Assembly (NCBI GenBank): GCA_000200715.1
Contig: DP000238.1
Coordinates: 956,593 to 1,020,592 of the forward strand
DNA from: Cenarchaeum symbiosum A
Lineage (GTDB): Archaea; Thermoproteota; Nitrososphaeria; Nitrososphaerales; Nitrosopumilaceae
Length of the DNA: 64,000 nucleotides
Direction: 5' to 3'
Under the pieces are notes generated by a model. That model was not told the DNA's origin and did not search any database. It saw only the letters and a list, made by a program, of their open reading frames with translations. Made by a program: the position numbers and the translations under genes. Positions 16,201-54,728 of this stretch are shown one piece after another (positions within the stretch are counted from its first letter, which is position 1; every line of letters begins with the position of its first letter).

Positions 16201-17132
16201 TGGTCGTTGGCTAGATCCGAGACGAACATCCTCGTGCCGCCGGGATCAAACGCAAGCCCGTCTAGAATCTGTCCGGCGCCGCCCTCGTTTGCCGCATCGT
16301 ACTCCGCAACATAGGATATGGGAGATGAGACTACGTCAAAGGGAGCACCCACAGAATACTGGCCTACGTGGCCGGTGGTTCCGGAGACGAACATGCGGAG
16401 GCCGTCATTTGAAAAGGCAAGCCCGAGCGGATCGCCTGTCCGCGAGTCCAGATCAGCAGAACCCTCTAGCTCGGCAGATTCTATATCGTACGGGCCCGAC
16501 AGTGCATACTGGAACACCCGTCTCGGGGCATCCCCGGTGATCAGCATAGTGAGTCCGTCTGGCGAGAACGCCATGGCCCGCACGACCCTCTCCTGTGCTC
16601 CGACCGACACAAACGCAGTCCGCGAGGGCAGCGTAAATGTAGAGCTCCCGGGATATGATCCCGCGGGCCCCGACAGCGCGTCGGCATCAAAGTGCAGCCA
16701 GGGATCCGCAAACCCGCCCAGTTGGGAATACTGTTGACTAGTAAGCTCAAACACCAGCACGTCAGAGTCACCCGCTGTAACTAGGCTGTCTCCCTCTAGT
16801 GTTATGCCGCCCGACAGGGTGTCGCCGTTCCGCACGTGCATCCTGGTCGGGTCCACCGACGAGATGTTGACTGTAGAATCAAACACAAGGACGATCCTCT
16901 GGTTCTCTACATCCAGTGCCGATGATACCGCATCAAGCTCGGCATATGCGCCCGGAAGAGCCGCAGCGCATGCGGCAAGCAAGACCGCAACGGCCAGCAC
17001 CGGGGCAGACCGTACTGACCCCCGGCGTCGCGGGCCCCGGAGCCCGCTGTTTCCCCCCGTATAGTGCATCATAACAGAGGGGTGCGTACGCTTACCCCCC
17101 ATAGGTAAAAGCCCCCTGGTTTGACGTGCCAT
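1266..17132 (-). CDS. Giant secreted multi-propeller surface protein (about 5,288 aa)
   Basis: One uninterrupted frame of 15.9 kb. An N-terminal signal peptide has a basic n-region (RGPRRRGS), a hydrophobic core APVLAVAVLLAACAAALP and a likely cut after AYA near residue 64. The body alternates about seven Ig-like domains (core VFD...VDxSRIHIRDG; near residues 70, 710, 1350, 1695, 2110, 2750 and 3540) with beta-propeller blocks whose 45-50-residue blades read like FSxDGxxMFVxG...VHRYDLxxPYDI. I estimate 70-80 blades. Low-complexity DxPxVxD repeats lie near residues 3360-3525 and 4455-5010. A poly-Gly run (about 5030), a domain with two cysteines (about 5048-5190), a Pro/Glu linker and the terminal helix DMDILGRLIDFFRSLFG follow. 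It is probably extracellular and structural or adhesive; propellers of this type often bind ligands, but no enzyme motif was seen. Starts at 17102 or 17072 are alternatives. Confidence 0.9.
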   Translation of the reverse strand: MARQTRGLLPMGGKRTHPSVMMHYTGGNSGLRGPRRRGSVRSAPVLAVAVLLAACAAALPGAYAELDAVSSALDVENQRIVLVFDSTVNISSVDPTRMHVRNGDTLSGGITLEGDSLVTAGDSDVLVFELTSQQYSQLGGFADPWLHFDADALSGPAGSYPGSSTFTLPSRTAFVSVGAQERVVRAMAFSPDGLTMLITGDAPRRVFQYALSGPYDIESAELEGSADLDSRTGDPLGLAFSNDGLRMFVSGTTGHVGQYSVGAPFDVVSSPISYVAEYDAANEGGAGQILDGLAFDPGGTRMFVSDLANDQIRQYDLTVPYSPGLIVDSAGSLAVGGSALNPSISGISFSPDGLRIFMTDAANNMLHVYRAQAPYDVREATLVGRPLDLSALGGRAADVLVMPGGTDLLIAENIGTDGIHRIQLASLYDGALVTPSVSSSIGGETSGIAFSADGLYMLVTDTEESQVRGFRLSAPYDTSTAVFDDVTNVSLNRPVDVILHSSNHVMYVLDRGNERVPRDGKVLEYFLTSPYNLTSATFSGGELRVGDEDNMTGGFAHNDDGTSVFVTGHQSDSVHRYDLSDPYRPIPAVYAETLDVSDRVRDPSDVEFALGGLFMLLTESDGIMHSYSLGQPYDLGTASYGRSFTGDRPGGLGGAVPLLNGSGIITLSGDGTISRLATAALPLRPCDPGQPLAGGACGDLGEPPAFASAIMGLAGREIEITFDRPVDAASVRPDRITITDGVGLVGGVQLSSAAQVVQGDPNTIRFELNRTDASTVFGYDDPTLRFDGGALRGTFYNFPPGFEVPGPPVAGSADISDRTEALSGVEFSADGSVMYAVSADPKGILQYSLGTPYDIDAAEYYGRFDISSRPGDPEGMSFSPDGGRMYVAMHDRVFQYRLDVPFVVLEAGLPEGDSFADGSCNSPTRPQGRACRTGGFTAGSVELTDAVVSSDGGRLFIVDGGTVHQYALFPRFNINSAASTPDASFALVEDPAAGGLRFSPDGLIMIVTGGSGHVYRYDLDEPFDLSGMSSTPFLEVDAQDASPSGVAFSADGHQMFIAGSETGTIYRYVLPRPFDPAVSAYDGLFDSGASPGGDGIAAGPGGESLFLTSSTDLYRHFMIPPYNILGADPNESNMQSVGGSAGRGLAASPSGHRVYAALDGSMVAQLNSGPPVDLVPDTTIRLADTAGDLQGIEVSDDGQKIFVADGMTRTIHQYYLDESFAIGQGNRYAGSFALGSEVGDPTGLYMSPGGDSMFISDGDQLHEYSLRIPYEVSTASYRGDLELSQHMGNATAVTFSDDGLVMYVSGNDGVHQYLLGARQLFVCPAQQHIENGACAGEIPSGIELAPPGLDGATGLLQMPFNELINAESIQPGLISVRDGLSATSGVGPLDSVPGDGDSVVRLELGGPELDEAYNYTNPYLHFEAGALANLAGDPFPIPHDSRTAVRQAFFPVDDPPADVAFSADGLGMIVAGGGVAVYTLADPFDVRGAVLFGMSEPEANYTAVEFSADGTVMLLASEAGIDSYSLNAPYFPIGGILGESYSPTEEAAPLGLAASDDGRRIFVTGASGSVHQYDLSAPYALNTALLAGSFDVSGQDRLPSGVSFAGGGSIMHVAGGAGGLVHMYELFRPFDVTSAEYTGPNRAGRVPGGISGVAFSGDGLRMFSADADPAGIIQYALNVRQLAFEPDGPRLLDATLEIRTGTIIVKLDRVINTSSISDESLILADANDPDYSFPFSSSLFRTTEADSDVIRMMAGGGEFDITGIAPESPALAYQEDAFRDRDGRSFPVPLDVESLQRVDRFSSGGDAPEAVTFSSDGTTMLMANGTSFIYQYSLDPPYRLAGATYEGMYNTGSDTPPTGLFLSPDDRQLFVAFFFDDVYRYSLSRPAEITSGVQRTQTLAGGPSGLPAYRDVIFSPDGLRMFLATLDGNAHQYDLAVPYSLSLAELQHSAFVSRGGSVGGMWFSPGGTELLVSQSNANGVYRFDLSLPYDLGNVSGSTFDSVGVGGVPNDLAFSHDGRTMFIAGAGSLNSYDLFSRDLALCPGDPVCGTITAQYPLFALDAPEQSDAADARRVLDITDAPTISEDLVEQLRPTRAGDLPLFSDSATVIGKSFALVSAVADSGGILSIVFDAPVDHSSVDASRIHIRDGNDAEGLTLLPVELSSTGTGNTVSFGLNETRIGEVLAQSSPRLHFDEGALNGAGGERFPEPFALPLPAQKGSLNVAAQDGTPQGAAFSPDGMIMLMAGTGSDAVHQYDLPAAYDVEAAEYSGASLATPGMEPVALVFADGGRLLIILDGAGFAVRSYEMTDPYNISTAAPSGGVLSTSGREVEPRGIAISPDGLSIFVTGQGSNSVHQYSLGTAFDLSTGSYSGKSVSVAEQETNIQGVAFSARGDLMFIVGTESDLLHRYELSGAFDLSGRTHTGSLYIAGTGGDAMDLALSTDGRLAFIPDSSSDSIHRYELDGPYGIDGTPTGEYGLPDSAPTGVAFSADGTLMLISGNGGDAVYGFALDPPFDLSAPRSSGSFSTAAEDTVPRDVDITADGGSVFVMGRQTDSVHRYDLASPFEITAPTHNGSFFVGETETTPNGLAFTQDGDGLFIVGFAEDAVYEYNLEGPYDLNGSMPNSSLAGSLNLGDRGENPTDVYFLPGGDVMLAASVGAASVLRYDLESAYNISTAEYAGSFSVRNEGTSPTGLAYSADGMRLFVTDAVTDAIHWYELGTYPVGITQSSAASDVPLFSDDASASIPPPGLVSVTAHAGDILRIVFDQPIDHSTVNASRIHARDGNETTGVTLVQADLVGPGTGNTVSFNMSGNLGEILDYSSPRLHFDADALRSIHGDSFPRQFELPLPSYRGSFGVAVQETRIEGVAFSPDGRRMIITGTDSGAVHQYDLPRPYDMQAARYSGISIPTMIEPVDLAFADGGSLLVILGIANDAVHAYRLAEPYDIVNAIPTEGVLSVRSQAPAPRGIAISSDGLQVFVTGQESDSVHEYSLGTAFDLSTGVYNASIEVMDQAMSPQGVTFSADGTLMFITGANSKSLHRYELDGAFNIAGSTHTGTFYLADNAGSPSGLDFSADGRLVFVSDFVFDAVHVYELDGPYGIDGPPTGMFGLPDADPTGVAFSADGTLMIVSGNDRDGVFGFELGLPFDLSAPGTNRSFSTSGEDAEPHDVDISADGGSVFVIGREGGRVHRYDLASPYNITAPTPNGSFFVGGSEPFPSGLEFTPDGEGLFIVGADEHTVYEYSLAGPYDLRGSMPADSLVGSFSVKGQDDSPVAVSFSTDGHVMFAASSARDRVLRYELGSPYGLGSVEYTGSFNLRDQGTSPTGLAFSADGLRMFFTDSDTAAVYWYQMGTHPIGISQTAFARNITVAEGDAPGIVDGGVPDVMRKLAAKGNSTPGVGDAATADRTVRISEVDMPVIIGDGVHDITGDGVAKGNSTPGVGDAATADRTAKISEVDMPGIVDGGVPNATRNEVAEGSSTPGVVDGAATARMGKLSADDTPDVADGGVHDAMRKLVANGTSAPGVSDRAERIINGVMMPPDLQVVSIVLDSRGVLEITFDGMVNKNVIKHGLISIADGYAPAGRIPLTAGEITTAGPDSLRYALDANKWNLVRDYADPRLRFDIGALGPGLPDVGYRLPDTLYPYELDTASVDLNNTEESPQALAFSVDGTVMFTVGLDLDTVFRYVLEQPYDISSARIDGSHNVGDQEEDPRGLAFSADGLKMFVAGNDTVHQYSLGSQFGFNPAPSFNASFSTVEDGLVTGIDFGRNGTIMYLSGANNSAIQQYDLSSPYDITVQPVHAGNFSTVSQDDSPRGVIVSEDGRNMLVLGGEDDRVYMYGIDEPHNITTAGYVGSLQVRNQENNPEGMAASADGRLLFVTGTQNNEVHRYDLGAPYDAAQVRADGGPTFNVYNNVDNRDGPGRVPTGIVFSPDGLQMFVSSHALGTVQAYNLTVPYSVTTATAADSYATATSGLARDRPFDVEFSADGLWMFNTGREGQNLYSYTLDTPYNITSAVQNGTYDIETSAQAAVVFNPEGTIMLLAVETPGSIQEYNLPNPFNISGAVAAPFSIGDGLSPVGLEYSSDGHRLFIMDNTEVVHRYDLLTPYSLNVSLFIDSEVFNSDAQTNDITFSGDGRKLFIAGGQGHNIVTYNLTSPYDITSSARSTALLVETSSNPTPSDVSVSNDGRSVLVFNNLRDRVSDYTLLQPYDLSTRGQQAESPAAANSNVNAMEFSSNGTLMFLMGWTAPAAGDNPDNIAGREIHTYNLSTAFDTTTAQLIGSFITGSVTNPLPSEPRNEPPDKSISSPSAMRFSPDGIDLFIIDEIERAIHHFNLSSPYLVDNTTAYVESLDVENRDSNPSGLAFSADGKRMFITGANRDAIQRYDLDIAHNLSTAVYSGLISVGRLENQPRGIAFSEDGSRLFFTGEQRDLVYLFDLAGPETIRVLPGVLDDVDTMTHNVPAVDKPSVFDGPPASTVVRTLIISENDILSFEETDGIADMASPNATDKPGISDPVRLAVSFNLAGDDAPTVLDVPGVGEIPDRPTLVSVADSLMFEDPVAVDVMISSRNASDTPAISDPVRLAVQFFLTEDDAPTVLDVPGVGEIPDRPTLVSVADSLMFEDPVAVDVMMSSESVVRNGTDKPAVSDEPRLVWTIHISENDTLSFEEIDDVGGMTSRSASDTPAISDPVRLAVSFNLAGDDAPTVADVPDVGEIPDRPTLVSVGDSLMFVDLPGVDVMMGRNVVERNGTDRPAVSDEPRLVRTISLSGNDTLSVEERDDVGGTTRRNGTDTPIISDPVRLSVLFHLTGDDAPTVLDVPGVDEMANRPIPLPGGDSPSFTELPGANVMMGRDAVIRSVTDAPTVSEDQHVARITSISEDDSPSFEEIPGVDDMTSRDAADMPAVSDSARLSVQFFLSGDDAPTVVDVPDVDSGRNEDAPTVAERISLGFSRMASDEPTVADSAQPGPIMIRDIPDVDDSVAFGLSITVSDEPTVADRTPGLEPTDAPAVSDLAEADRIRPAPPPEPRPVPRSSGGGGGGGGGGGLAPTGSSLGYSASFDFTSGGINTLTAPVSIRLASGLPLVITPVLNPGTLTVYDMEIRLNDIEGAAAEVYYNRLGAFYGKECGGETAESASLYTCDVSSAISGAASHSEKGGALESISIPLQDGFSGTMTLMLRDNQGLKLADHERLYRVSTILADTPIPSGPPAAEPQPSAEPQPPRQVEPPGPAAQPPRDEPAAPSPVEPEPQAPRPGTPRMDPEPSGLEQDSARDSAPEDMDILGRLIDFFRSLFG
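1269..2050 (-). other. C-terminal module of giant protein 1 (Gly hinge, two-Cys domain, Pro-rich linker, amphipathic helix)
   Basis: This subregion encodes, in order, an uninterrupted run of glycines, the start motif SLGYSASFDF, a beta-rich domain with LTVYDMEIRLND and VYYNRLGAFYGKECGGE, a second Cys in LYTCDV, the strand SISIPLQDGFSG, a Pro/Glu/Gln-rich linker and the last 15 residues, which form an amphipathic helix. The second giant protein (53980-54725) has the same order and recognisably homologous sequence, although its repeat region differs. Confidence 0.85.
2110..3770 (-). repeat. DxPxVxD repeat region of giant protein 1
   Basis: About 550 residues in which motifs such as DAPTVLD, DTPAISD, DKPAVSD and DRPTLVS recur every 20-26 residues, arranged in longer units of about 70-80 residues. 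Some longer units are nearly identical at DNA level, for example around 3290-3360 and 3480-3550. The region is acidic, lacks Cys and aromatic residues, and probably forms an extended stalk. Confidence 0.8.
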
Positions 17133-40759: not shown

Positions 40760-40787
40760 GCGCCGAATAGTGACTGCCCATGCCACT

Positions 40788-40796
40788 ATTTTTAAG
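40788..40796 (+). promoter_or_regulatory. TATA box of the Cys-motif membrane protein gene
   Basis: ATTTTTAAGG around 40788-40796, centred 27 bp before the ATG at 40818. It rules out the longer GTG frame from 40770. Confidence 0.65.
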
Positions 40797-40817
40797 GCAC
40801 CTCCGCGGATCGTGCGC

Positions 40818-41771
40818 ATGATGCGGGCTGCATGGGCGATACTTTTGCTGGCCGCGCCCTTCGCTGTATTTGCCGTTCCCGGCGAGGTCATGGTGGACCT
40901 GGAGGGGGAAGCTGTGGCCATAAGCTATGACGCGGTAGGCCTCGAGGTAAGAGACGCGGTGATAGACCGGGATGCCACTTCCGTGATATTCGAGGTGGAG
41001 GTCACCGGAACCCCGGGGATGCTGACTATTACAATGGAGAGGGAGTTTCTCGACGCGATAGAGGACGGAGAAGATGTGGATTTCGTGGTAATAGCGGACG
41101 CAGAGGTAACGGACCATGAGGAGGTCTCTACCGATGACGGGAGCAGGGTGCTGCAGATTGAGCTGTCTGCAGGAATAGAGGATGTAGAGGTGATAGGAAG
41201 GGTCTTTGCCATGCTCGATGCAGGTCCTGAGCCCCGGACGGAAGATGCGGAGCCGGTGGATGCCGAAGAGCCCGGGGATGCGGCAGATGAAGATCCCGAG
41301 GATGTGGAAGTGGACGAGCCTGCGGATGCCAGCGTGCGCGAGCCCCGGACGGGGACAGACGGGCGCGATGATATGGAAGGGGCCGGACCCGAGACGGAGG
41401 AGCTGGAGGATGCAGGGGCCGCAGAAACGAGAGATGATTCAGATCAAGGGCGCGAGGCCATGGCGGATCCGCGGGAATCTGCATGCGGGCCGGGCACTGT
41501 TCTTCAGGACGGCGTCTGTGTGCTCGAGCTGTCATGCGGAGCAGGCACTGTTCTTCAGGACGGCGTCTGTGTGCTCGATGAGGCATGCGGGCCGGGCACC
41601 ATCCTGAGAGACGGCGTCTGCGTTCTAGACAATGTGCGCACCCCGTCAGGGTCGGGCCTCGGGGTCGGGTTCATAGGCGGGATCATGATTGCGCTCTTTG
41701 TGGCCGTCATACTCTGGGTAATCAGCAAGATAGCCAGGGACAGGTCGGATGGCCCGCACGTGTACCCCTGA
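40818..41771 (+). CDS. Exported, C-terminally anchored protein with three Cys-motif repeats
   Basis: 317 residues, family not recognised. A signal peptide (MMRAAWAILLLAAPFAVFA) is followed by a beta-rich domain of about 110 residues, an acidic Glu/Asp/Pro linker of about 110 residues, and three tandem 14-17-residue repeats of the form CGPGTVLQDGVCVL. A transmembrane helix (FIGGIMIALFVAVILWVI) and a short basic cytoplasmic tail (SKIARDRSDG) end it. Each repeat probably closes one disulfide loop. A related Cys-x(8-11)-Cys motif is found in both giant proteins, so the three may belong to one cell-surface set. The start is set by the promoter. Confidence 0.75.
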   Translation: MMRAAWAILLLAAPFAVFAVPGEVMVDLEGEAVAISYDAVGLEVRDAVIDRDATSVIFEVEVTGTPGMLTITMEREFLDAIEDGEDVDFVVIADAEVTDHEEVSTDDGSRVLQIELSAGIEDVEVIGRVFAMLDAGPEPRTEDAEPVDAEEPGDAADEDPEDVEVDEPADASVREPRTGTDGRDDMEGAGPETEELEDAGAAETRDDSDQGREAMADPRESACGPGTVLQDGVCVLELSCGAGTVLQDGVCVLDEACGPGTILRDGVCVLDNVRTPSGSGLGVGFIGGIMIALFVAVILWVISKIARDRSDGPHVYP

Positions 41772-43062: not shown

Positions 43063-43521
43063 ATGCTAATCAGCAGGGACCGGCTCTGGGTAAAGCTCTG
43101 GAGATCAAACTCGCATGATATACGCGACAGGGTGATCATATGGCGCAAGCAAAACGCAGTCACCCGCATTGAGAGGCCCACAAGGATAGACAGGGCAAGG
43201 AGCCTCGGGTACAAGGCCAAGCAGGGCATAGTGGTGGTCAGGATGCGCGTGGGAACAGGCGGCATGAGAAGGCAGAGGCCGCGCGGGGGCAGGAGGCCCA
43301 AGCATCTCGGAGTCACCAGGATCAAGGCCGACGTAAGCATGAAGCAGGTGGCCGTGCGCAGGGTCCTCGAGAGGTACCCCAACATGTCGCTGCTGGGGTC
43401 GTACTTTGTGTACAAGGACGGCGCTTATTACTGGTTCGAGGTAATACTGGCCGACCCGTCCCATCCAAGGGTGGCAAAAGACCCGGAGCTGCGCGACCGT
43501 GTCGGTGCACGCGCTGCATAG
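43063..43521 (+). CDS. rpl15e: Large ribosomal subunit protein L15e
   Basis: 152 residues. The conserved block RIERPTRIDRARSLGYKAKQ, then GIVVVRMRV and RRPKHLGVTRIK, is diagnostic for L15e, an rRNA-binding protein of archaea and eukaryotes. The C-terminus YYWFEVILADPSHPRVAKDP is also conserved. The start at 43063 matches usual length (about 150) and promoter spacing; the frame is open to 42970 but the extension is not conserved. The next gene overlaps its end by 23 bp. Confidence 0.94.
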   Translation: MLISRDRLWVKLWRSNSHDIRDRVIIWRKQNAVTRIERPTRIDRARSLGYKAKQGIVVVRMRVGTGGMRRQRPRGGRRPKHLGVTRIKADVSMKQVAVRRVLERYPNMSLLGSYFVYKDGAYYWFEVILADPSHPRVAKDPELRDRVGARAA

Positions 43522-43990
43522 AGCGGCGGCCTGCATAGCCGCCGTATCGCTGTGCATAGTTCCTGCATACGGCCTGGATAGCCCCGGCCTCAAGCAGAGG
43601 TTTGACGTCGAGACCGGCGGTTATGTCTTCGAGGTGGTTACGACATCCAACTTTGATGTGACGGGGCACGAGTTTGTCGCAGAAGAGCGGCGCCTGACCC
43701 TGTTCATAGATAGCAATGTGGAGGATAACATATCCGAGATGGTGATACCGGTCAACTTGATAAACGGAAACTTTACCTTCATGTTAAACGGGGAGGAGCT
43801 CCTCCCCTTGGTGCGGACCGGCGGCGACATCTCGTTCATAACGGCAGAGTTTCCCGGCAGCGGCGAGCACCGGCTGGACATAGTGGGGACCACGTACCTG
43901 CCAGAGTTCGCGGGCGCCGCCATGCTGGTGCTCGCGGCATCCATAATGTGCATAGTGCTGTTGAGAAACAGCCAGATCATGGTCCGCTAG
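43499..43990 (+). CDS. Exported membrane-anchored protein with PEF-type C-terminus
   Basis: 163 residues. A signal peptide (ACIAAVSLCIVPAYG) is followed by a beta-rich extracellular domain of about 100 residues and a C-terminal LPEFAGAAMLVLAASIMCIV helix with the short tail LLRNSQIMVR. The PEF motif before a terminal helix and a basic tail resembles the PEFG-CTERM sorting signals of thaumarchaeal surface proteins. It starts (GTG) inside the end of L15e and is probably in its operon. Function unknown. Confidence 0.7.
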   Translation: MSVHALHRAAACIAAVSLCIVPAYGLDSPGLKQRFDVETGGYVFEVVTTSNFDVTGHEFVAEERRLTLFIDSNVEDNISEMVIPVNLINGNFTFMLNGEELLPLVRTGGDISFITAEFPGSGEHRLDIVGTTYLPEFAGAAMLVLAASIMCIVLLRNSQIMVR

Positions 43991-44086: not shown

Positions 44087-44106
44087 TGCGGAATCCGTGC
44101 CTGAAG
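44087..44106 (+). repeat. Copy D of the intergenic element
   Basis: The core GTGCGGAATCCGTGCCTGAA is about 165-180 bp upstream of giant gene 2. The left flank GTCCAGAAAAGG is similar to the flank of copy C. Confidence 0.55.
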
Positions 44107-44175
44107 CTGCGCCTTGTGCAATCCGGGACGGGCACTGCGATAAAGATTATCAAGGGCGCGGTTTTACGCGCCCGT

Positions 44176-44271
44176 ATGAACCGCGCGCCGAGGCCGCGGC
44201 CCGCCCGCTACCCCGGGCGGACACCGGCACGCAGCTGCGGCCATACAGGAGCCCTGGAGGCACCCCCATGA
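44176..44271 (+). CDS. Possible upstream leader ORF (31 codons)
   Basis: ATG-initiated frame MNRAPRPRPARYPGRTPARS and onward, very rich in Arg and Pro, whose TGA overlaps the ATG of giant gene 2 (ATGA). An A/T-rich sequence near 44140-44150 is about 27 bp upstream. It could couple translation to the giant gene, but such short frames are common in GC-rich DNA. Confidence 0.25.
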   Translation: MNRAPRPRPARYPGRTPARSCGHTGALEAPP

Positions 44272-47200
44272 GAGTTGGTACTGCAGCATGCCTTGCCCTG
44301 CTGGCGGCCCTGCTGCCGGCCGCAGCACATGCCGAGCCCGTGATATTCTCGGCGGTCCTGGACGGGAATACAGGGAGCCTTGTGATCACATTTGATGCGA
44401 CCATAGACGCCGGCAGCATAGATCCATCAAAGGTGCACATAAGGGACGGCGGCCTGGCAAAGGGGGGGATCACACTAACGGCGGACAGCCTGGTCCCGTC
44501 GGGCAACTCCGGTACGGTGACATTTGTTCTCGACGAGGCCGCCTTGTCCACTGTATCAGGGTATGCAGGGCCCACGCTGCACTTTGAGAACGGCTCGTTT
44601 AGGGATACCGACGGGGGCCTTCTCGGCCCGCTCAAGCTGCCGGAGCTTGCCCGCCCCGCCACATCGGCGGCAGATCTGGATGCGCAGGCGGGCGGTTTTG
44701 ACTTTACCCGGGACGGGCAGCCGCTCGGCATGGAGTTCTCGCCCGACGGCTCTCTTTTGTTCATAGTCGGGGGCATCACTGATTCCGTATACAGGTATGT
44801 CCTCGGCACCCCCTATGATGTTACGACGGCGGGATCTGTCAGCTTCGCCCCGCTGCCGGCCGTTGCGCGCATCGACGCTACCGGCGGCCGCATCGACGCC
44901 CCCCACGGGCTGGCCTTTTCATCCAACGGGACCATGATGTTCGTGCTCTCGCAGGACCGGGATACGGTATTCCGGTTCGACATGGATACGCCGTTCAACC
45001 CTATTCCAATCACGCCTTCTGCAGAGAGATTCGTGCTCACGGGCCCCGACTTGCGGGCCGCCGATGTGCAGCCAAGCGACGTGCACTTTACAAGAGACGG
45101 AATGATGATGCTCGTCCCTGATTCCACCGGGGAGCTGGTCCGTTCGTACTCCATGCCCTCGCCCTACGATATCTCGAATGCCGAGCCCGCGGGGGAGTTT
45201 TCCGTGGAGGGGCCGGAGGATGTCATCGGCGACGTGTCCCTGTCGCCCGACGGCCGGCGCGCGTTTGTCGTCGGCGGCGACACGGACAGGGTGCACCGGT
45301 ACGACCTGGCAGAGCCGTACAATGTGAGCACGGCAGTGCGCGTCGATTCGCTTTACGTCGGGGGGGAGGAGACCAGCCCGACTAGCCTAGAGTTCTCGGC
45401 AGATGGAATCCGCATGTACGTGATAGGGACCACGTCGGACCGGGTGTCCCAGTACGACCTGGAGGCCCCGTTCGATGTGACCCTGCCGGCGCAGGCAGAC
45501 ACCCTGTACCTTGGAGACGGCGACGGCATCAACACAGGCCTTGCGTTTACCGGCACCGGCCTGCGCATAGTGGTTACGGGCTCGGAGAGGGAGCGCCTGT
45601 ACGTCTACGAGATGGATGAACCATACGACGTGGCCACCGGCGAGCGCACAGGGTCCGCAGACATAAGCGAGCAGGCGACTGCCGCCACGGGGGTTGCATT
45701 CTCGGGCGACGGCCTCAAGTTATTCGTCATAGGGCAGGTCACGGACGGGGTGCACGAGTACAGCCTGTCCAACAGGTATAACATCTTCGGGCGTACATAC
45801 GAGGGCCTGCACCCGATAAGCGAGGAGGGGAGGCCGCAGTCGCTTGACTTCTCCGAGGACGGAATGCTCATGTTCATTTCGGGCCTGGACACGGAGCAGG
45901 TCCACAGGTACTCCCTTGGGGAGCCCTTTGATCCGGGCAGTGCGGAAGGGGCCGTGGAGTCGTTCTCTGTGGCGGACCGGGCCGGCTTCCCCACAGGCGT
46001 GACATTCTCGCCCGGCGGGACCGACATGTACGTCTCGAGCCGCGTCTCGGACCACATACACAGGTACGAGCTGGCCGAGCCGTACGTGCTGGCGGGCGCA
46101 ACCCATGCGGGCGCGTTCAATGTAGGGCAGTATGAGAGGGGCCTCTTTGAAGTGTTGATGGATCCCGACGGCTCGGGCATCACCATAGTGGGGAACCTGG
46201 CGGACACCATGTTCAAGTATCCGCTGGACGTGAGGGGGCTGCCAGTCATTGCAGACCCGCCCGAGATAGCATCCGCGGCATTCGACCCGCAGACCAACAG
46301 GCTGGGAATAGCCTTTGATGTAGAAGTTGACGCCGCATCGGTCATACCGCCGAGGATAAGCATAGGCGACGGCGCGGACCGCGGCATTTCATTTGTGGGC
46401 GCGGAGGCAGTGCAGGGCACAAGCCCCAAAGACGTGGAGATGGAACTGTCCGGGAGTGCAGGAACTACGGTGTCAGGGTATGTGGATCCGACGCTACACT
46501 TTGGGCCGTATGCCGTGGGCACCGGGGCCGGCGCTTTCCCCGAGCCGTACAGGTTCGCAGAAGGCATGATGATATCAAGCACGAGCTGGGGCGGTGCCGA
46601 TCCCGAGGGGCTGGCATTCTCAGCTGACGGCTCAAGCTTGTTTGTGATCTCCGCGGACCGCTCGCTGTACAGGCATGCACTGGGCACACCGTTTGACGCC
46701 TCCTCTGCCGGGGATACAACCATTACAAAGCTGCTGGACCAAGACTCTGTCCCCGCCGGCCTTGCGTTCTCTGCTGACGGGTTTAGGATGTTCATCGCCG
46801 ATGACGGGGCAGATATGGTGCACCGGTACGAGCTGGATGTAGAGTACGAGATACCATTACAGCTGGAGATAGACGGCTCGATCGAGGTGGCAGACGGGGA
46901 TACAGGAGGGGTCGCATTCTCGTCCGACGGGAGGAGGATGTTTATCATATCGGACGGATCTATTCTAGGGTATATTCTAGATGAGCCGTACGGGGCAATA
47001 TCCGCGGGCGCGCCGTCGACGTTCACGCCGGGCGACACAGTCACGGACGTGTCTGACGTGTCCTTCTCGTTTGACGGCACAAGGATGTTCATATCTGACG
47101 AAGGAGCTAGCGCCATCCACAGGTACGACCTGTCCATACAGTATGACACTGCCTCGGCTCAATATGCGGGATCCATCGGGACAGGCGCGGGCAGCGCGGC

Positions 47201-50200
47201 AGCCGCCCTTACTCCCGACGGGTCAGGGATGGCAGTCGCGCAGGGCGGGTCGGTGGTCCAGTATTCGCTGTTCACGGGGATGCTCGACGTGTGCGCGCAG
47301 GAGCAGGCCCTGTACAGGGGCACATGCGTCGATGCATCCGCGATATTCGCAGAAGACAGGCCGGGCACAGCAGAGCCGCTATCTCTGGCTCCCATGATAT
47401 CGACAGGGGACGCGCCCGGCCTGGCGGAACCGGCCCTAACCAGGGTCATCATGATGAACATTATAGAGGCGTTTGACGCACCCGGGATAATCGAGCCCGG
47501 AAGGTTCTCGTTTCCCCGGCCGGCAATAGACGTCCCGGGCATAGCTGATGTGAGCCTCTCCGTCCCGGACGTGCCCGGGCCGGTCATCCTCTCTGCAGTG
47601 ATGGACGAATCGGGAATAGTCGAGATACTATTCGACAGCGCAATAGATGTGGACAGCATAGATAAGAGCGGGATATCAATAAGGGACGGCTCTGTAAACA
47701 TAGACGACAGGCCGCTAGTCGGCAGCCTGTTGAGCGGCTCGAATACGAATGTCTTAAGGTTTGAGCTGGCCAAGGACTATGTGGACAGGGTCCTCGGGTA
47801 CTGGAACCCCACGCTGTACTTTGCACCCTCGACGATGTTCAGCACCAGGGGCGGCGCGTTCCCCGTCCCGTATTCGCTACCCATAGTTACAAGCAGGGTC
47901 ACCTTGAATACCACGGAAGAGGCCGAGCTTACCGACGGGCTGGCCTTTACGGAGAACGGGCTCGGGGCATTCATCCTTGGCCGGAATACTGCGTCCGTGT
48001 ACAAGTACGACCTCCTGACCCCCTTTGAAATGACCGGCGCGCGGTACTCGGGGGCAATGCTAAACATGTCAGGCCAGGATAATACGCCTGTGGGGCTGGC
48101 CTTCTCCGCCAACGGCACAATAATGTACATGCTAGGAAGCAATACCACGACCATACACAGGTACGACCTGGGCACGGCCTTTGGGATAGATACGGTAAAT
48201 TATACGGGCGGCGAGTATGTGGGGGACAGGGTGCCCGTGCCCCGTGAGATGGTATTCTCCGAGGACGGATTGCGCATGTTCCTGCTAACAGAGACTGCCG
48301 ACTTTGGCGGCGATTCTATCCACCAGTACACCCTAAGCTCGCCGTACCAGGTTGCCGGCGCGGTTCATGACGGCTCGCTCGGGGGCACACTGCGGGACGG
48401 GAATCCCAGCGGTGTAAGCGTCATATCCGGACTGCTGGCCTTTGAGCCCGGGGGCAGGGTGATGTACGTATCAGGGTTCTTTAACATCCAGATACTCAGG
48501 ATGCCGCTGGGCACGGCATACGATGTCACCACGGCTGCAAACGGCACGCAGTATCTTGAAGGGGCCCTGATCAGCCAGGGTCACGGGGCTCTTGTGTTTA
48601 CCGAGGAGCGCCCCCGCGCATTTTTTGCCACAGAGCAGGGCACCATAGAGCAGCTCATACTGAGCAGCCCCTACAGCCGGCTTGATGACGCCTTTGAGCT
48701 GGACCTGCTTGAGGGAGGGGGCGGCAGCGGCCTCGCCTTCTCGGAGGACGGGACACGGCTGTTTACAGGCTCGGCGCAGACCAGCCTCATACGCGGATTC
48801 AACGTGGGCCTGCCCTTTGAAATACGGGAGGCCGAGCTCGACAGGGGGCTTGATTTTGTCCTGTCTGGGGGCAGTGCAGAATTTCGCGATATCAAGTTCT
48901 CTGCCGACGGCAAGACCATGTTCGTGCTGGTAAACGAGGGCTTTAGCGGGGGAAGGATCGACTGGTACGACCTGCCTGGCGAGTACGACACCAGCACGCC
49001 GGAGCTTGCAGGATCGTACGTGGTCAAGAACGTGACCGGCCAGCCGGTGGTGACCTCGGTCAGGGGGATAGAGTTTTCGGCCGACGGGATGCTGCTGGTT
49101 GCAGGGGCCGCGTTTGAGGAAATCTATGTGTACGAGCTCGGCGAGCCGTATCTCATACAGGAGATGAATGCCAGCCGGAGGGGGGATGTCAGCGCAAGCC
49201 CCGATGGCGCCTTTGACCAGGGGGGGATAGAGTTTTCGGCCGACGGCGAGAGGATGTTTACCGGGGGAAGGAGCGCCGGCTTTGGCGACCGCGACGCCTA
49301 TGTAAACCAGTTCAACCTCACCGGGCCGTACACTTTTGATCTGGACAGGCCCGTGGGCAGGTACAATACAGAGACGAGGGCGAACCCGGTAGCGCTGGAG
49401 TTCAATGACAACGGCTTTGACATGTACATTGCAGGCGGGTCCAGTGCATACCAGTACAACCTGAACATCTTCAGGCTGCAGCTCTGCGATTCCGAGACGC
49501 AGTTTGTGGAGAACGGCGTGTGCAACAACCTGTTTTCCTCAAACGCGACTGACGCGCCGGTGGTGTCCGATGGCACAGGCATGCCGAAGATTGGCAATGG
49601 GACAGACGTTCCAGTGGTGGCAGATATGGTAGAGGTTGATGCCTCGCTTGGCGCGAGGGATATGCCAGAGGCGGCAGACGGCGCAAGTGCAAAGGGGCCC
49701 CTGGCAATAGCGGTGGGCGATGTGATGGAGCTTGGCGATGATGCGATGGTTCCGGCAGCAGACGGCATGGTCTACAGGATCATGGGTGCGGACGGTCCCG
49801 CGGTGGGTGATGAGGGGGAGCCGGACCTTGAGCGTGCGCCGATAATGATAATGGGCACAGACGGGCCCGCTGTTGCCGATAACGAGAATGTCGTGCGTAT
49901 TCAAGGCGGGCCCAGCCTAATAGCAGTATCCGACGTGATGGAGCTCGGCGATGATGCAGCAGTGCCGGCAGCCGTGCCGCCGGCCACCGGGACGGTGCAC
50001 ATGATCGGCGGTGATGACGGGCCCGCGGTTGGCGACGCTGGCCTGCCGGTACTTGAGCGTGTGCCGATAATGATAATGGGCTCCGATGATCCGGCGGTGG
50101 ACGATGACGAGATGGTCATGCATAATCCGGGAGGGCCCCGCATGGTAGCAGTATCCGACGTGATGGAGCTCGGCGATGATGCAGCAGTGCCCGCACCAGT

Positions 50201-53200
50201 CGGTATGATCTACAGGATCTCGGGCGCAGACGATCCCGCGGTGGGTGATACGGGGGAGCCCGACCTTGAGCGTGCGCCGATGATGATAATGGGATCCGAT
50301 GATCCGGCGGTGGATGATGACGAGACGGTCATGCGTAATCCGGGCGGGCCCCGCATGATAGCGGTTAGTGATGTGATGGAGCTTGGTGATGATGCAGCAG
50401 TGCCCGCACCAGTCGGTATGATCTACAGGATCATGGGTGCGGACGATCCCGCGGTGGGTGATACGGGGGAGCCCGACCTTGACCGTGCGCCGATGATGAT
50501 AATGGGCTTCGACGGACCGGCGGTGGTCGATGACGAAAGGATCATGCATAATCTGGGCGGGCCCCGCATGATAGGGGTTAGTGATGTGATGGAGCTTGGC
50601 GATGATGCAGCAGTGCCCGCACCAGTCGGTATGATCTACAGGATCATGGGTGCGGACGATCCCGCGGTGGGTGATACGGGGGAGCCCGACCTTGACCGTG
50701 CGCCGATGATGATCATGGGCTTCGACGGACCGGCGGTGGTCGATGACGAAAGGATCATGCATAATCTGGGTGGGCCCCGCATGATAGGGGTTAGTGATGT
50801 GATGGAGCTTGGAGATGATGCAGCAGTGCCCGCACCAGCCGGTATGATCTACAAGATCATGGGGGGAGATGATCCCGCGGTGGGTGATACGGGGGAGCCC
50901 GACCTTGACCGTGCGCCGATGATGATCATGGGCTTCGACGGACCGGCGGTGGTTGATGGCGAGATGCTAATTCATAATCTGGGCGGGCCCCGCATGATAG
51001 CGGTTGGTGATGTGATGGAGCTTGGAGATGATGCAGCAGTGCCCGCACCAGTCGGTATGATCTACAGGATCATGGGTGCGGACGATCCCGCGGTGGGCGA
51101 TACGGGGGAGCCCGACCTTGACCGTGCGCCGATGATGATAATGGGCTTCGACGGACCAGTGGTGGTCGATGACGAAAGGATCATGCATAATCCGGGCGGG
51201 CCCCGCATGGTAGCGGTGGGTGATGTGATGGAGCTCGTCGATGATGCAGCAGTGCCGGCACCAACAGGTATGAACTACGAGATCATGGGCGCAGACGATC
51301 CCACAGTAGGCGATGACGAGATGGTCATGCGTAATCCGGGCGGGCCCCGCATGGTAGCGGTATCCGACGTGATGGAGCTCGTCGATGATGCAGCAGTGCC
51401 GGCACCAACAGGTATGAACTACGAGATCATGGGTGCAGACGGTCCCACAGTAGGCGATGACGAGATGGTCATGCGTAATCCGGGCGGGCCCCGCATGGTA
51501 GCGGTATCCGACGTGATGGAGCTCGTCGATGATGCAGCAGTGCCGGCACCAACAGGTATGAACTACGAGATCATGGGCGCAGACGATCCCACAGTAGGCG
51601 ATGACGAGATGGTCATGCGTAATCCGGGCGGGCCCCGCATGGTAGCGGTGGGTGATGTGATGGAGCTCGTCGATGATGCAGCAGTGCCGGCACCAACAGG
51701 TATGAACTACGAGATCATGGGCGCAGACGATCCCACAGTAGGCGATGACGAGATGGTCATGCGTAATCCGGGCGGGCCCCGCATGGTAGCGGTGGGTGAT
51801 GTGATGGAGCTCGTCGATGATGCAGCAGTGCCGGCACCAACAGGTATGAACTACGAGATCATGGGCGCAGACGATCCCACAGTAGGCGATGACGAGATGG
51901 TCATGCGTAATCCGGGCGGGCCCCGCATGGTAGCGGTATCCGACGTGATGGAGCTCGTCGATGATGCAGCAGTGCCGGCACCAACAGGTATGAACTACGA
52001 GATCATGGGTGCAGACGATCCCACAGTAGGCGATGACGAGATGGTCATGCGTAATCCGGGCGGGCCCCGCATGGTAGCGGTGGGTGATGTGATGGAGCTC
52101 GTCGATGATGCAGCAGTGCCGGCACCAACAGGTATGAACTACGAGATCATGGGCGCAGACGATCCCACGGTGGACGACGAGGGTGTACCGGTCCGGGATG
52201 CCGTGACCTTTATGATCAACAGGACTGATGCATTCACGTTCGAGGAGACAGGCGACGCGCCCATTGACAGAGCCCCGCTTACGATCATGGTAGCCGAAGG
52301 CCCCACGGTGCGCGAGAGGATAGATGAAGATCATACCCCGGGCGGGCCCCGCATGGTAGCGGTATCCGACGTGATGGAGCTCGGCGATGATGCAGCAGTG
52401 CCGGCACCAACAGGTATGAACTACGAGATCATGGGCGCAGACGGTCCCACAGTAGGCGATGACGAGATGGTCATGCGTAATCCGGGCGGGCCCCGCATGG
52501 TAGCGGTGGGTGATGTGATGGAGCTCGTCGATGATGCAGCAGTGCCGGCACCAACAGGTATGAACTACGAGATCATGGGCGCAGACGGTCCCACAGTAGG
52601 CGATGACGAGATGGTCATGCGTAATCCGGGCGGGCCCCGCATGGTAGCGGTATCCGACGTGATGGAGCTCGTCGATGATGCAGCAGTGCCGGCACCAACA
52701 GGTATGAACTACGAGATCATGGGCGCAGACGGTCCCACAGTAGGCGATGACGAGATGGTCATGCGTAATCCGGGCGGGCCCCGCATGGTAGCGGTATCCG
52801 ACGTGATGGAGCTCGTCGATGATGCAGCAGTGCCGGCACCAACAGGTATGAACTACGAGATCATGGGTGCAGACGGTCCCGCGGTGGACGACGAAGGTGT
52901 ACCGGTCCGGGATGCCGTGACCTTTATGATCAACAGGACTGATGCATTCACGTTCGAGGAGACAGGCGACGTGCCCATTGACAGAGCCCCGCTTACGATC
53001 ATGGTAGCCGAAGGCCCCACGGTGCGCGAGAGGATAGATGAAGATCATACCCCGGGCGGGCCCCGCATGGTAGCGGTATCCGACGTGATGGAGCTCGGCG
53101 ATGATGCAGCAGTGCCGGCACCAACAGGTATGATCTACAGGATCCCGGGCGGAGATGATCCCACGGTCTCCGATGTAGGCATGCGGATGCATGTCATGGT

Positions 53201-54728
53201 TCCGGAAATGCACATGATCACGGAAGTGGACAGCCCCACATTCACCGACCCCGGCAGGGCGCACCGTGCAGGGGATCCCATCCCGATCATGGGCGGAGAT
53301 GATCCCTCGGTCTCCGATGTAGGCATGCGGATGCATGTCATGGTTCCGGAAATGCACATGATCACGGAAGTGGACAGCCCCACATTCACCGACCCCGGCA
53401 GGGCGCACCGTGTCGGGGATCCCATCCCGATCATGGGCGGAGATGATCCCTCGGTCTCCGATGTAGGCATGCGGATGCATGTCATGGTTCCGGAAATGCA
53501 CATGATCACGGAAGTGGACAGCCCCACATTCACCGACCCCGGCAGGGCGCACCGTGCAGGGGATCCCATCCCGATCATGGGCGGAGATGATCCCTCGGTC
53601 TCCGATGTAGGCATGCGGATGCATGTCATGGTTCCGGAAATGCACATGATCACGGAAGTGGACAGCCCCACATTCACCGACCCCGGCAGGGCGCACCGTG
53701 TCGGGGATCCCATCCCAATCATGGGCTTCGACAATCCCGCGGTCTCTGACTTCCCCGAGATGCCCCGCAGGATGGCCTTCCTGGGTGTTGTAGACAGCCC
53801 GTCGCCTGAAGATAGAACCATGCTGGGCTTCTTTGTGGACGTATCAGATACTCCGAAGGTTGAAGACCGCGAAGGGGACGTAATCAGGAACGGCAGCACG
53901 CCCGTGGTAAACGACACCGCGGAGGCGTCACACACGCTGGGCCCTGCCGACGTTGCCCCGCCGCCGGTGCCGCCCCGCGGAGGCGGCGGCGGTGGAGGTG
54001 GCGGAGCCTCAGACAGGGGCCCCGGCCTGCCAAGGGGCAACAGCCTCGGATATGACCTCATATTCGAGTTCCGCTCCAACGGGAGGGACGTGCTGGAGAA
54101 GCCGTCAACCATACGCCTCCAGCCCGACGCGCCGCTGACCATAATTCCGATACTGACGCCCGCGGGCACCCTGGACGTCTACGACATGGAGGTCATAATG
54201 AAAGATGGCGACGAGCTGGCCGCCAGCGTCTACTACAACAGGCTGGGCATATTCCACGGCAGGGATTGCGGCGGCGAGGTCGTGCAGACCAGCAGGATTC
54301 ACACGTGCGACGAGGAATCCCTGGTATCCGGCGGCGTCACCTATAGGGCAAGCGGAGTCACCCTCGACAGCATCACCATTCCCCTCGAGGGCACCTACAC
54401 TGGAAAGCTCGGCATACTGTTGCGCGACGGCCAGGGCCTGATCTTTGCGCTGCCCGAGATCGACGTGTACACATTGAGAATAGAGGGGCCGTCAGCTGCA
54501 CCCCCGCCCGCGGCGCCCGCCCCAAGTATACAGCCAGAGATGGATCCGGAGCCCGCCAGGGAGCCGGAACCTGCAGAGCCCCGGGCGGATTCCCCCACGG
54601 AGCCCGAGCCCGAACCTGCAGAGCCCCGGGCGGATTCCCCCATGGACCCAGAGCCCGAGTTTGTGCCCCGGGAGAGGAACGTATTTGAGATAATAGGCGA
54701 CTTTCTGAGGAATATTTTCGGGTTCTAG
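44268..54728 (+). CDS. Giant secreted repeat protein 2 (about 3,486 aa)
   Basis: One frame of 10.5 kb. The signal peptide is MRVGTAACLALLAALLPAAA with a likely cut after AHA near residue 22. Three Ig-like domains (near residues 25, 665 and 1105; core ITFDATIDAGSIDPSKVHIR) each precede a block of beta-propeller blades of the FSxDGxxMFVxG type. Cys motifs (CAQEQALYRGTC, CDSETQFVENGVC) close two of the blocks. Residues about 1760-3225 are DxPxVxD repeats, including arrays of 144-nt units. A poly-Gly hinge, a domain with two cysteines, a Pro/Glu linker and the amphipathic end FEIIGDFLRNIFGF follow, as in giant protein 1. It probably forms a long surface or adhesive fibre. The start is at the signal peptide; the frame is open to 44097. 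Confidence 0.9.
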   Translation: MRVGTAACLALLAALLPAAAHAEPVIFSAVLDGNTGSLVITFDATIDAGSIDPSKVHIRDGGLAKGGITLTADSLVPSGNSGTVTFVLDEAALSTVSGYAGPTLHFENGSFRDTDGGLLGPLKLPELARPATSAADLDAQAGGFDFTRDGQPLGMEFSPDGSLLFIVGGITDSVYRYVLGTPYDVTTAGSVSFAPLPAVARIDATGGRIDAPHGLAFSSNGTMMFVLSQDRDTVFRFDMDTPFNPIPITPSAERFVLTGPDLRAADVQPSDVHFTRDGMMMLVPDSTGELVRSYSMPSPYDISNAEPAGEFSVEGPEDVIGDVSLSPDGRRAFVVGGDTDRVHRYDLAEPYNVSTAVRVDSLYVGGEETSPTSLEFSADGIRMYVIGTTSDRVSQYDLEAPFDVTLPAQADTLYLGDGDGINTGLAFTGTGLRIVVTGSERERLYVYEMDEPYDVATGERTGSADISEQATAATGVAFSGDGLKLFVIGQVTDGVHEYSLSNRYNIFGRTYEGLHPISEEGRPQSLDFSEDGMLMFISGLDTEQVHRYSLGEPFDPGSAEGAVESFSVADRAGFPTGVTFSPGGTDMYVSSRVSDHIHRYELAEPYVLAGATHAGAFNVGQYERGLFEVLMDPDGSGITIVGNLADTMFKYPLDVRGLPVIADPPEIASAAFDPQTNRLGIAFDVEVDAASVIPPRISIGDGADRGISFVGAEAVQGTSPKDVEMELSGSAGTTVSGYVDPTLHFGPYAVGTGAGAFPEPYRFAEGMMISSTSWGGADPEGLAFSADGSSLFVISADRSLYRHALGTPFDASSAGDTTITKLLDQDSVPAGLAFSADGFRMFIADDGADMVHRYELDVEYEIPLQLEIDGSIEVADGDTGGVAFSSDGRRMFIISDGSILGYILDEPYGAISAGAPSTFTPGDTVTDVSDVSFSFDGTRMFISDEGASAIHRYDLSIQYDTASAQYAGSIGTGAGSAAAALTPDGSGMAVAQGGSVVQYSLFTGMLDVCAQEQALYRGTCVDASAIFAEDRPGTAEPLSLAPMISTGDAPGLAEPALTRVIMMNIIEAFDAPGIIEPGRFSFPRPAIDVPGIADVSLSVPDVPGPVILSAVMDESGIVEILFDSAIDVDSIDKSGISIRDGSVNIDDRPLVGSLLSGSNTNVLRFELAKDYVDRVLGYWNPTLYFAPSTMFSTRGGAFPVPYSLPIVTSRVTLNTTEEAELTDGLAFTENGLGAFILGRNTASVYKYDLLTPFEMTGARYSGAMLNMSGQDNTPVGLAFSANGTIMYMLGSNTTTIHRYDLGTAFGIDTVNYTGGEYVGDRVPVPREMVFSEDGLRMFLLTETADFGGDSIHQYTLSSPYQVAGAVHDGSLGGTLRDGNPSGVSVISGLLAFEPGGRVMYVSGFFNIQILRMPLGTAYDVTTAANGTQYLEGALISQGHGALVFTEERPRAFFATEQGTIEQLILSSPYSRLDDAFELDLLEGGGGSGLAFSEDGTRLFTGSAQTSLIRGFNVGLPFEIREAELDRGLDFVLSGGSAEFRDIKFSADGKTMFVLVNEGFSGGRIDWYDLPGEYDTSTPELAGSYVVKNVTGQPVVTSVRGIEFSADGMLLVAGAAFEEIYVYELGEPYLIQEMNASRRGDVSASPDGAFDQGGIEFSADGERMFTGGRSAGFGDRDAYVNQFNLTGPYTFDLDRPVGRYNTETRANPVALEFNDNGFDMYIAGGSSAYQYNLNIFRLQLCDSETQFVENGVCNNLFSSNATDAPVVSDGTGMPKIGNGTDVPVVADMVEVDASLGARDMPEAADGASAKGPLAIAVGDVMELGDDAMVPAADGMVYRIMGADGPAVGDEGEPDLERAPIMIMGTDGPAVADNENVVRIQGGPSLIAVSDVMELGDDAAVPAAVPPATGTVHMIGGDDGPAVGDAGLPVLERVPIMIMGSDDPAVDDDEMVMHNPGGPRMVAVSDVMELGDDAAVPAPVGMIYRISGADDPAVGDTGEPDLERAPMMIMGSDDPAVDDDETVMRNPGGPRMIAVSDVMELGDDAAVPAPVGMIYRIMGADDPAVGDTGEPDLDRAPMMIMGFDGPAVVDDERIMHNLGGPRMIGVSDVMELGDDAAVPAPVGMIYRIMGADDPAVGDTGEPDLDRAPMMIMGFDGPAVVDDERIMHNLGGPRMIGVSDVMELGDDAAVPAPAGMIYKIMGGDDPAVGDTGEPDLDRAPMMIMGFDGPAVVDGEMLIHNLGGPRMIAVGDVMELGDDAAVPAPVGMIYRIMGADDPAVGDTGEPDLDRAPMMIMGFDGPVVVDDERIMHNPGGPRMVAVGDVMELVDDAAVPAPTGMNYEIMGADDPTVGDDEMVMRNPGGPRMVAVSDVMELVDDAAVPAPTGMNYEIMGADGPTVGDDEMVMRNPGGPRMVAVSDVMELVDDAAVPAPTGMNYEIMGADDPTVGDDEMVMRNPGGPRMVAVGDVMELVDDAAVPAPTGMNYEIMGADDPTVGDDEMVMRNPGGPRMVAVGDVMELVDDAAVPAPTGMNYEIMGADDPTVGDDEMVMRNPGGPRMVAVSDVMELVDDAAVPAPTGMNYEIMGADDPTVGDDEMVMRNPGGPRMVAVGDVMELVDDAAVPAPTGMNYEIMGADDPTVDDEGVPVRDAVTFMINRTDAFTFEETGDAPIDRAPLTIMVAEGPTVRERIDEDHTPGGPRMVAVSDVMELGDDAAVPAPTGMNYEIMGADGPTVGDDEMVMRNPGGPRMVAVGDVMELVDDAAVPAPTGMNYEIMGADGPTVGDDEMVMRNPGGPRMVAVSDVMELVDDAAVPAPTGMNYEIMGADGPTVGDDEMVMRNPGGPRMVAVSDVMELVDDAAVPAPTGMNYEIMGADGPAVDDEGVPVRDAVTFMINRTDAFTFEETGDVPIDRAPLTIMVAEGPTVRERIDEDHTPGGPRMVAVSDVMELGDDAAVPAPTGMIYRIPGGDDPTVSDVGMRMHVMVPEMHMITEVDSPTFTDPGRAHRAGDPIPIMGGDDPSVSDVGMRMHVMVPEMHMITEVDSPTFTDPGRAHRVGDPIPIMGGDDPSVSDVGMRMHVMVPEMHMITEVDSPTFTDPGRAHRAGDPIPIMGGDDPSVSDVGMRMHVMVPEMHMITEVDSPTFTDPGRAHRVGDPIPIMGFDNPAVSDFPEMPRRMAFLGVVDSPSPEDRTMLGFFVDVSDTPKVEDREGDVIRNGSTPVVNDTAEASHTLGPADVAPPPVPPRGGGGGGGGGASDRGPGLPRGNSLGYDLIFEFRSNGRDVLEKPSTIRLQPDAPLTIIPILTPAGTLDVYDMEVIMKDGDELAASVYYNRLGIFHGRDCGGEVVQTSRIHTCDEESLVSGGVTYRASGVTLDSITIPLEGTYTGKLGILLRDGQGLIFALPEIDVYTLRIEGPSAAPPPAAPAPSIQPEMDPEPAREPEPAEPRADSPTEPEPEPAEPRADSPMDPEPEFVPRERNVFEIIGDFLRNIFGF
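49910..51194 (+). repeat. Array of 71-residue (213-nt) repeats in giant protein 2
   Basis: Units such as GGPRMIGVSDVMELGDDAAV, then PAPVGMIYRIMGADDPAVGD and a third 24-residue part with RAPMMIMGFDGPAV, recur about every 213 nt. The DNA of adjacent units is very similar. The unit looks like three 23-24-residue sub-repeats. Confidence 0.85.
51195..52170 (+). repeat. Array of 144-nt repeats, first block (7 units)
   Basis: Seven tandem 48-residue units starting GGPRMVAVSDVMELVDDAAV and containing GMNYEIMGADDPTVGD. Units start near 51195, 51339, 51483, 51627, 51771, 51915 and 52059. They differ at only a few bases, for example the SD/GD and ADD/ADG codons. The last unit diverges into DDEGVPVRDAVTF. 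Confidence 0.9.
52341..52880 (+). repeat. Array of 144-nt repeats, second block (4 units)
   Basis: Four more copies of the same 48-residue unit (starts near 52341, 52485, 52629 and 52773), separated from the first block by a spacer encoding DDEGVPVRDAVTFMINRTDA and onward. The same spacer follows this block again at about 52875. Confidence 0.9.
53148..53723 (+). repeat. Array of a different 144-nt repeat (4 units)
   Basis: Four tandem units GGDDPSVSDVGMRMHVMVPE, then MHMITEVDSPTFTDPGRAHR and the end GDPIPIM (48 residues). Starts are near 53148, 53292, 53436 and 53580. Units alternate Ala/Val at one codon (HRAG, HRVG, HRAG, HRVG), which points to duplication of a two-unit block. Confidence 0.9.
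53980..54725 (+). other. C-terminal module of giant protein 2
   Basis: Poly-Gly hinge, NSLGYDLIFEF start, LDVYDMEVIMKDGDELAASV, YYNRLGIFHGRDCGGE and a second Cys in IHTCDE, then SITIPLEGTYTG, a Pro/Glu linker with a repeated PEPAEPRADSP unit, and the terminal amphipathic helix. It corresponds segment by segment to the end of giant protein 1. Confidence 0.85.

Follow-up and report, generated by a model that had tools for sequence, protein, structure and literature searches.

A shared C-terminal module ending in an amphipathic helix, a candidate surface-retention element of the giant proteins of Cenarchaeum symbiosum A

We analyzed a 64,000-nucleotide stretch of the Cenarchaeum symbiosum A genome (the window; positions 956593-1020592; the genome is one contig with 2,045,086 bp), which encodes two giant proteins with a common C-terminal module consisting of a poly-Gly hinge, an immunoglobulin (Ig)-like domain, an acidic Pro/Glu spacer and a terminal amphipathic helix. 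An initial annotation of the window had described the module in these two proteins. Profile searches, on which all genome-wide statements here rest, revealed that the domain occurs 33 times, in 32 proteins, and that two further proteins have the helix only, so that 34 proteins bear the terminal helix; their frames cover 300,924 bp, or 14.7% of the genome. From these sequences we tentatively propose that the module may retain secreted giants at the cell surface, with the terminal helix acting as an in-plane membrane anchor. The relevant features of the window are as follows.

1266-17132, minus strand: giant protein 1, 5288 amino acids (aa), with signal peptide, beta-propeller repeats, SDxPxVSD repeats and the C-terminal module
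2013-2057, minus strand: PRSS-Gly11 hinge of protein 1
1530-1994, minus strand: Ig-like module domain of protein 1 (Cys 5121, Cys 5134)
1314-1529, minus strand: acidic Pro/Glu spacer of protein 1
1269-1313, minus strand: terminal amphipathic helix of protein 1, DILGRLIDFFRSLFG
44268-54728, plus strand: giant protein 2, 3486 aa from the ATG at 44268, with beta-propeller repeats, SDxPxVSD-type repeats and the C-terminal module
44268-44333, plus strand: Sec-type signal peptide of protein 2, MRVGTAACLALLAALLPAAAHA/EP
53973-54005, plus strand: P-R-Gly9 hinge of protein 2
54042-54491, plus strand: Ig-like module domain of protein 2 (begins SLGY; Cys codons 54267-54269 and 54306-54308)
54492-54677, plus strand: acidic Pro/Glu spacer of protein 2, predicted to be disordered
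54678-54725, plus strand: terminal amphipathic helix of protein 2, NVFEIIGDFLRNIFGF; stop codon 54726-54728
43898-43981, plus strand: PEFG-CTERM signal of the small protein 43499-43990; included for comparison, as this known surface signal is of another kind

All elements that had been described in both tails, namely the poly-Gly hinge, the SLGY start, the Cys residues in KECGGE/RDCGGE and TCD contexts, the Pro/Glu spacer and the terminal helix, were found at 53973-54725 (plus strand) and 1269-2057 (minus strand). The proteins terminate in DILGRLIDFFRSLFG (protein 1) and FEIIGDFLRNIFGF (protein 2), and their module domains are homologous by sequence comparison (47% identity over 136 aa, E 9e-46). 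The open frame of protein 2 as read spans 44097-54728 (plus strand), and the ATG at 44268 is likely the true start; the annotated lengths of 5288 and 3486 aa agree with start codons that yield signal peptides.

A profile of the two window domains, used as the query against the genome, recovered the 33 copies at E 3e-11 or better in open frames of 623 to 12,016 aa. One protein carries two domains in tandem. Every copy is C-terminal, with 78-113 residues following the domain, and the module thus lies at the ends of proteins rather than inside them. The architecture is constant: a signal peptide, variable repeats (mostly beta-propellers), a P-x-R-Gly(5-16) hinge, the Ig-like domain, the Pro/Glu spacer and the terminal helix. 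An Arg stands 1-3 residues ahead of the 5-16 glycines in 32 of 32 hinge-bearing proteins. The spacers comprise 60-95 residues with a mean Pro+Glu content of 41%, a net charge of about -17 and no Cys. Both Cys residues are invariant in the 33 domain copies; the invariant positions of the domain are C, C-D, E and G. Scans of the 33 domains and of 28 full tails with Pfam and NCBIfam gave no meaningful family, and a sequence search of the PDB with the domain returned nothing (best E 1.3). Weak matches of the tails to TonB and a polymerase subunit were discarded, as they look like Pro/Glu low complexity.

AlphaFold2 predicted a confident all-beta fold for the domain (predicted local distance difference test score, pLDDT, 92.6; predicted template-modelling score, pTM, 0.85). 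In a model of the full protein-2 tail, the domain was again confident, the spacer had low confidence and a helix was placed at residues 237-249 of 251 (block pLDDT ∼79). The domain in the model looks like an Ig-like beta-sandwich. Foldseek comparison to the PDB retrieved mainly Ig-like chains with template-modelling scores of 0.38-0.47 of the query; no match to the PDB or to viral models fell below E 1e-3, and the Ig-like resemblance is not taken as homology. The two invariant Cys residues adjoin one beta-hairpin in the model and may form a disulfide.

The terminal helix comprises 16 residues with the consensus G-F-[FL]-D-x-I-x-x-F-F-R-S-L-F-G, usually followed by one more residue (e.g. GFFDAIGDFFRSLFGL). 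A profile built from 28 terminal helices and run on the whole genome recovered the family and six places outside the profile. Three of these are domain-bearing proteins: one with extra residues beyond the helix (942938), one with a weak helix match (1737827) and the tandem-domain protein, whose helix has been displaced to another frame by a frameshift (407951). At 584603 and 607975, frames of 596 and 608 codons encode a signal peptide and a propeller that runs directly into an end of the form EEPGILDAIAEFFGSLLGL, with a linker of ∼10 residues between propeller and helix and without hinge, domain or spacer. The sixth, at 564648, is a decaying tail remnant of 108 codons that has no domain and an L-to-P change in the helix. 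One further domain protein, at 1188887, has a diverged amphipathic tail that was recognized by eye only. Because 584603 and 607975 keep the helix without hinge, domain or spacer, the helix is separable from the domain, and it is common to all members.

In 31 aligned helices, positions 3, 4, 7, 10, 11, 14 and 15 are bulky-hydrophobic in every sequence, and positions 2, 5, 9, 13 and 16 never are. The identities at the hydrophobic positions swap freely among F, I, L, V, W and M, indicating that the constraint is on physical character and not on exact residues. The mean Eisenberg hydrophobic moment is 0.52 (median p 0.0045 versus shuffles of the same residues), and the hydrophobic face spans ∼140 degrees, comparable to in-plane membrane helices. 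The tails end in an amphipathic helix with a continuous hydrophobic face, as would be expected of a monotopic anchor. On the polar side, R is conserved in 25, S in 28 and G in 28 of the 31 sequences, and the net charge is mostly 0 to -1. As the initial annotation had it, the tails contain no transmembrane segment (over the whole family, no 19-residue Kyte-Doolittle mean within the last 60 residues exceeds 1.26) and no PEF-type signal (no TIGR04296 match in 28 full C-termini). Of the two small surface proteins of the window with which it contrasted them, only the protein at 43499 is a PEFG-CTERM protein (TIGR04296, 40 bits); the one at 40770-41771 has an ordinary transmembrane helix and a basic tail at its C-terminus and no PEFG match. 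The latter (plus strand) is a membrane-anchored protein of 333 aa with three near-copies of C-GPGTVLQDGV-C. Mini-motifs of the form C-x(7-11)-G-x-C that resemble those of this protein recur within several giants, with 12 in a frame of 10,048 codons.

Domain pairs of 75-98% identity gave a ratio of nonsynonymous to synonymous substitution rates (dN/dS) of 0.15-0.33. For the helix across the family, the proportion of synonymous differences (pS) was 0.71 and that of nonsynonymous differences (pN) 0.33, and conserved helix residues are specified by many codons; Ser, for example, is encoded by TCG 11, TCC 10, TCA 4 and TCT 2 times. Mean pairwise identity is 0.43 for the domain and 0.47 for the helix. 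For the helix-only pair 584603/607975, compared over 549 codons, pN (0.071) is well under pS (0.215; pN/pS 0.33), a sign of purifying selection that maintains the two as proteins. A function for the module is supported by the purifying selection on the domain, the scatter of synonymous codons in the helix, the domain-free helix and an independent spacer-plus-helix C-terminus in a second, metagenome-assembled genome (MAG; see below).

The two giants had been called otherwise different, a description that did not hold: both are made of the same beta-propeller repeats. Similarity in the N-terminal regions, mostly in these repeats, joins 31 of the 34 proteins, and the two window giants are therefore paralogues within one set. 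Bodies that depart from propellers are found at 1533106 (repeats only) and 406696 (domains without a Pfam match), and the protein at 619597 has a plastocyanin-like domain ahead of its propellers (PF00127, just below the cut-off). The proteins of L069 (1256-5803, minus strand) and L070 have a plastocyanin-like N-terminal domain followed by propellers and the module, with ∼20 GYDSGDER repeats after that domain in L069; they are possible surface copper or electron-transfer proteins.

Signal peptides could be read on 28 of the 34 frames. Since the others start beside an upstream frame that encodes a propeller or a signal peptide or otherwise looks coding, most frames without a signal peptide appear to be split genes. 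In L068, the terminal helix sits in another frame. Such splits may reflect sequencing error or real phase variation; those that look like frameshifts are:

765139-768747, 860040-875183, 676826-683563, 523798-534656, 499261-503600 and 327374-332500 (genome coordinates): giant genes apparently split by frameshifts

Within the last of these, the frame at ∼330860-332500 (minus strand), upstream of the module protein 327677 (L078), resembles part of a subtilisin-type protease, as judged by eye only.

We also looked for the module outside this genome. The domain had no match in 250 family genomes, in 398 phylum genomes or in the GTDB and viral collections; the weak matches across the phylum (E 0.013 and worse) were short, often crossed stop codons and were regarded as noise. 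Just one other genome belongs to the genus (3.2 Mb in one contig, more than 1 Mb larger), and it has neither the module nor beta-propeller giants. Across 250 genomes of the family, 398 of the phylum and 400 of the order, a single other archaeon showed the helix, the related Cenarchaeum sp. isolate MEX2-MAG13 (E 7.6e-9), which is assigned to another genus in the taxonomy used. There, a spacer-plus-helix C-terminus ending in PPPPPAPLVPDPIPEPEAEEFESIFDAIINWFRSLFGG and a stop codon lies at a contig end, and another contig encodes a propeller giant of at least 3186 aa that runs off the contig. Repetitive giants break assemblies, so that absence from draft MAGs counts for little; for the complete genomes searched, absence is better evidence. 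The search that the initial annotation had proposed thus yielded many more copies in the same genome and, in other archaea, just one genome with the helix and not the domain. The module is not a widespread archaeal signal. Weak helix matches in other family genomes were 34-aa open frames ending FFTSLLG (E 0.004), with no giant protein. A 34-aa open frame with the ending NIIE[ST]IVDFFTSLLG, a similar-looking helix unaccompanied by a giant protein, is common to three genomes of one other genus in the family.

The initial annotation had suggested an unrecognised attachment, assembly or export signal. Neither finding that it had named as refuting this idea was made: the module is present in 34 proteins, more than the two paralogues, and it sits at protein ends. 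The idea is supported in part, in that the module has the marks of a function; sequence cannot separate the three roles. Sequence does show a helix that is maintained, sits at the terminus, can occur without the domain and is amphipathic, and we tentatively infer that it binds lipid rather than a receptor. In the mechanism we tentatively favor, Sec export and removal of the signal peptide would leave the giant protein free. Acting as a monotopic anchor, the terminal helix would then lie in-plane at the outer face of the cytoplasmic membrane. The strongly acidic spacer would serve as an extended stalk, bringing the Ig-like domain and with it the giant body outward through the space beneath the surface layer, with the Gly hinge allowing the body to swing. 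The helix would be the essential element, and hinge, domain and spacer an optional pedestal. We read the helix as a membrane anchor because, once the signal peptide is gone, the module is the only common element able to hold the giants. Several points weigh against this mechanism. MinD and FtsA are targeted to the membrane by a flexible linker followed by a short terminal Phe/Leu-rich amphipathic helix, as in the module; their helices are cytoplasmic, cationic and not homologous, whereas the module proteins are secreted, with a helix that is near neutral and a spacer with a mean charge of -17. The conserved R, S and G of the polar side would be superfluous in a helix that only binds lipid. Short as it is, a single helix would hold a protein of up to 12,016 codons only weakly if binding were not multivalent. 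The set is also largely one paralogous family, so that common descent accounts for part of the sharing.

Conservation of the polar R, S and G leaves room for protein-protein attachment, in which the helix docks in a groove of a shared envelope receptor or bundles with other tails into a common coat. We regard this as the main rival, possible but less likely. Positions 4, 7, 11 and 14, hydrophobic in 31 of 31 helices, form an a/d heptad pattern, and conservation of the Ig-like domain, with its invariant C, C-D, E and G, is close to that of the helix, which would fit two contact surfaces; however, the hydrophobic identities drift freely, R is absent in 6 of the 31 helices, a length of two heptads is low for a stable coiled coil, and no receptor candidate was found. 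The Arg ahead of the poly-Gly tract in all hinge-bearing proteins and the Ig-like fold at the C-terminus could instead point to a sorting or export signal for a dedicated machine, later cleaved at the P-x-R-Gly hinge in the manner of type IX C-terminal domains or sortase substrates. This is improbable: two proteins keep the helix without hinge or domain, no NCBIfam sorting family was matched, and archaea like this one, to our knowledge, lack an outer membrane that would have to be crossed. A type I secretion signal was rejected because the proteins have Sec signal peptides.

Could the tail have been passively inherited from one duplicated ancestor gene, with no common mechanism? The N-terminal similarity that links most of the set and the confinement of nearly all copies to one genome are what such descent would leave. 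Yet the low dN/dS of the domain, the high synonymous change around conserved helix residues (with Ser specified by four codons), the retention of the helix where domain and spacer are gone and the tail in another MAG all weigh against it, as does the L-to-P change in the helix of the decaying fragment 564648, and we consider it very improbable.

These data tie 34 unexplained giant genes, a substantial part of a small genome, to one shared, testable surface module, and they yield a short peptide whose binding is open to direct measurement. Should the helix prove to be an anchor, archaeal secreted proteins that have neither a transmembrane segment nor a PEFG tag may call for reinterpretation. 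The giants of this probably sponge-dwelling archaeon would then be prime candidates for making contact with the host sponge or with cells nearby.

Giant proteins that are built of repeats and have a C-terminal domain for attachment in common are already known, as are C-terminal sorting signals as a kind. The former are represented by Giant1-5 of Apilactobacillus kunkeei, giant secreted repeat proteins of a symbiont that occupy 6% of its genome and have a signal peptide at one end, one shared C-terminal domain proposed for attachment and no transmembrane domain; in contrast to the 34 archaeal proteins, these five are bacterial, and they have an SH3b-like cell-wall-binding domain with no terminal helix described (PMC12863079). 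A survey of huge proteins notes that, within those of archaea, SGL and lactonase domains are confined to Thaumarchaeota, and the parts consulted describe no C-terminal module (PMC11573180). We found no description of this module in the literature; an earlier mention is possible in the original genome paper. The C-terminal domain of type IX secretion is similarly a C-terminal beta-sandwich on many different secreted proteins with Sec signal peptides, in a system that crosses the outer membrane and is restricted to Bacteroidota (PMC10202324), whereas the module genome is archaeal. Profiles of that domain (TIGR04131/PF13585, type A relatives) matched none of the 33 domains or 28 full tails. We know of no terminal helix in type IX C-terminal domains. 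PEFG-CTERM (TIGR04296) is, like the module, a C-terminal tag on many secreted, otherwise different proteins, and it occurs in the same genome, where its profile finds 8 proteins, one of them in the window and none a module protein. It combines a short motif, a transmembrane helix and a basic end, whereas the module has a terminal amphipathic helix and no transmembrane segment. The module could, though we hold this with some doubt, represent a second, transmembrane-free archaeal C-terminal surface-anchoring system beside PEFG-CTERM, based on a terminal amphipathic helix and borne by the whole beta-propeller giant set of a sponge-associated lineage, about one seventh of the genome.

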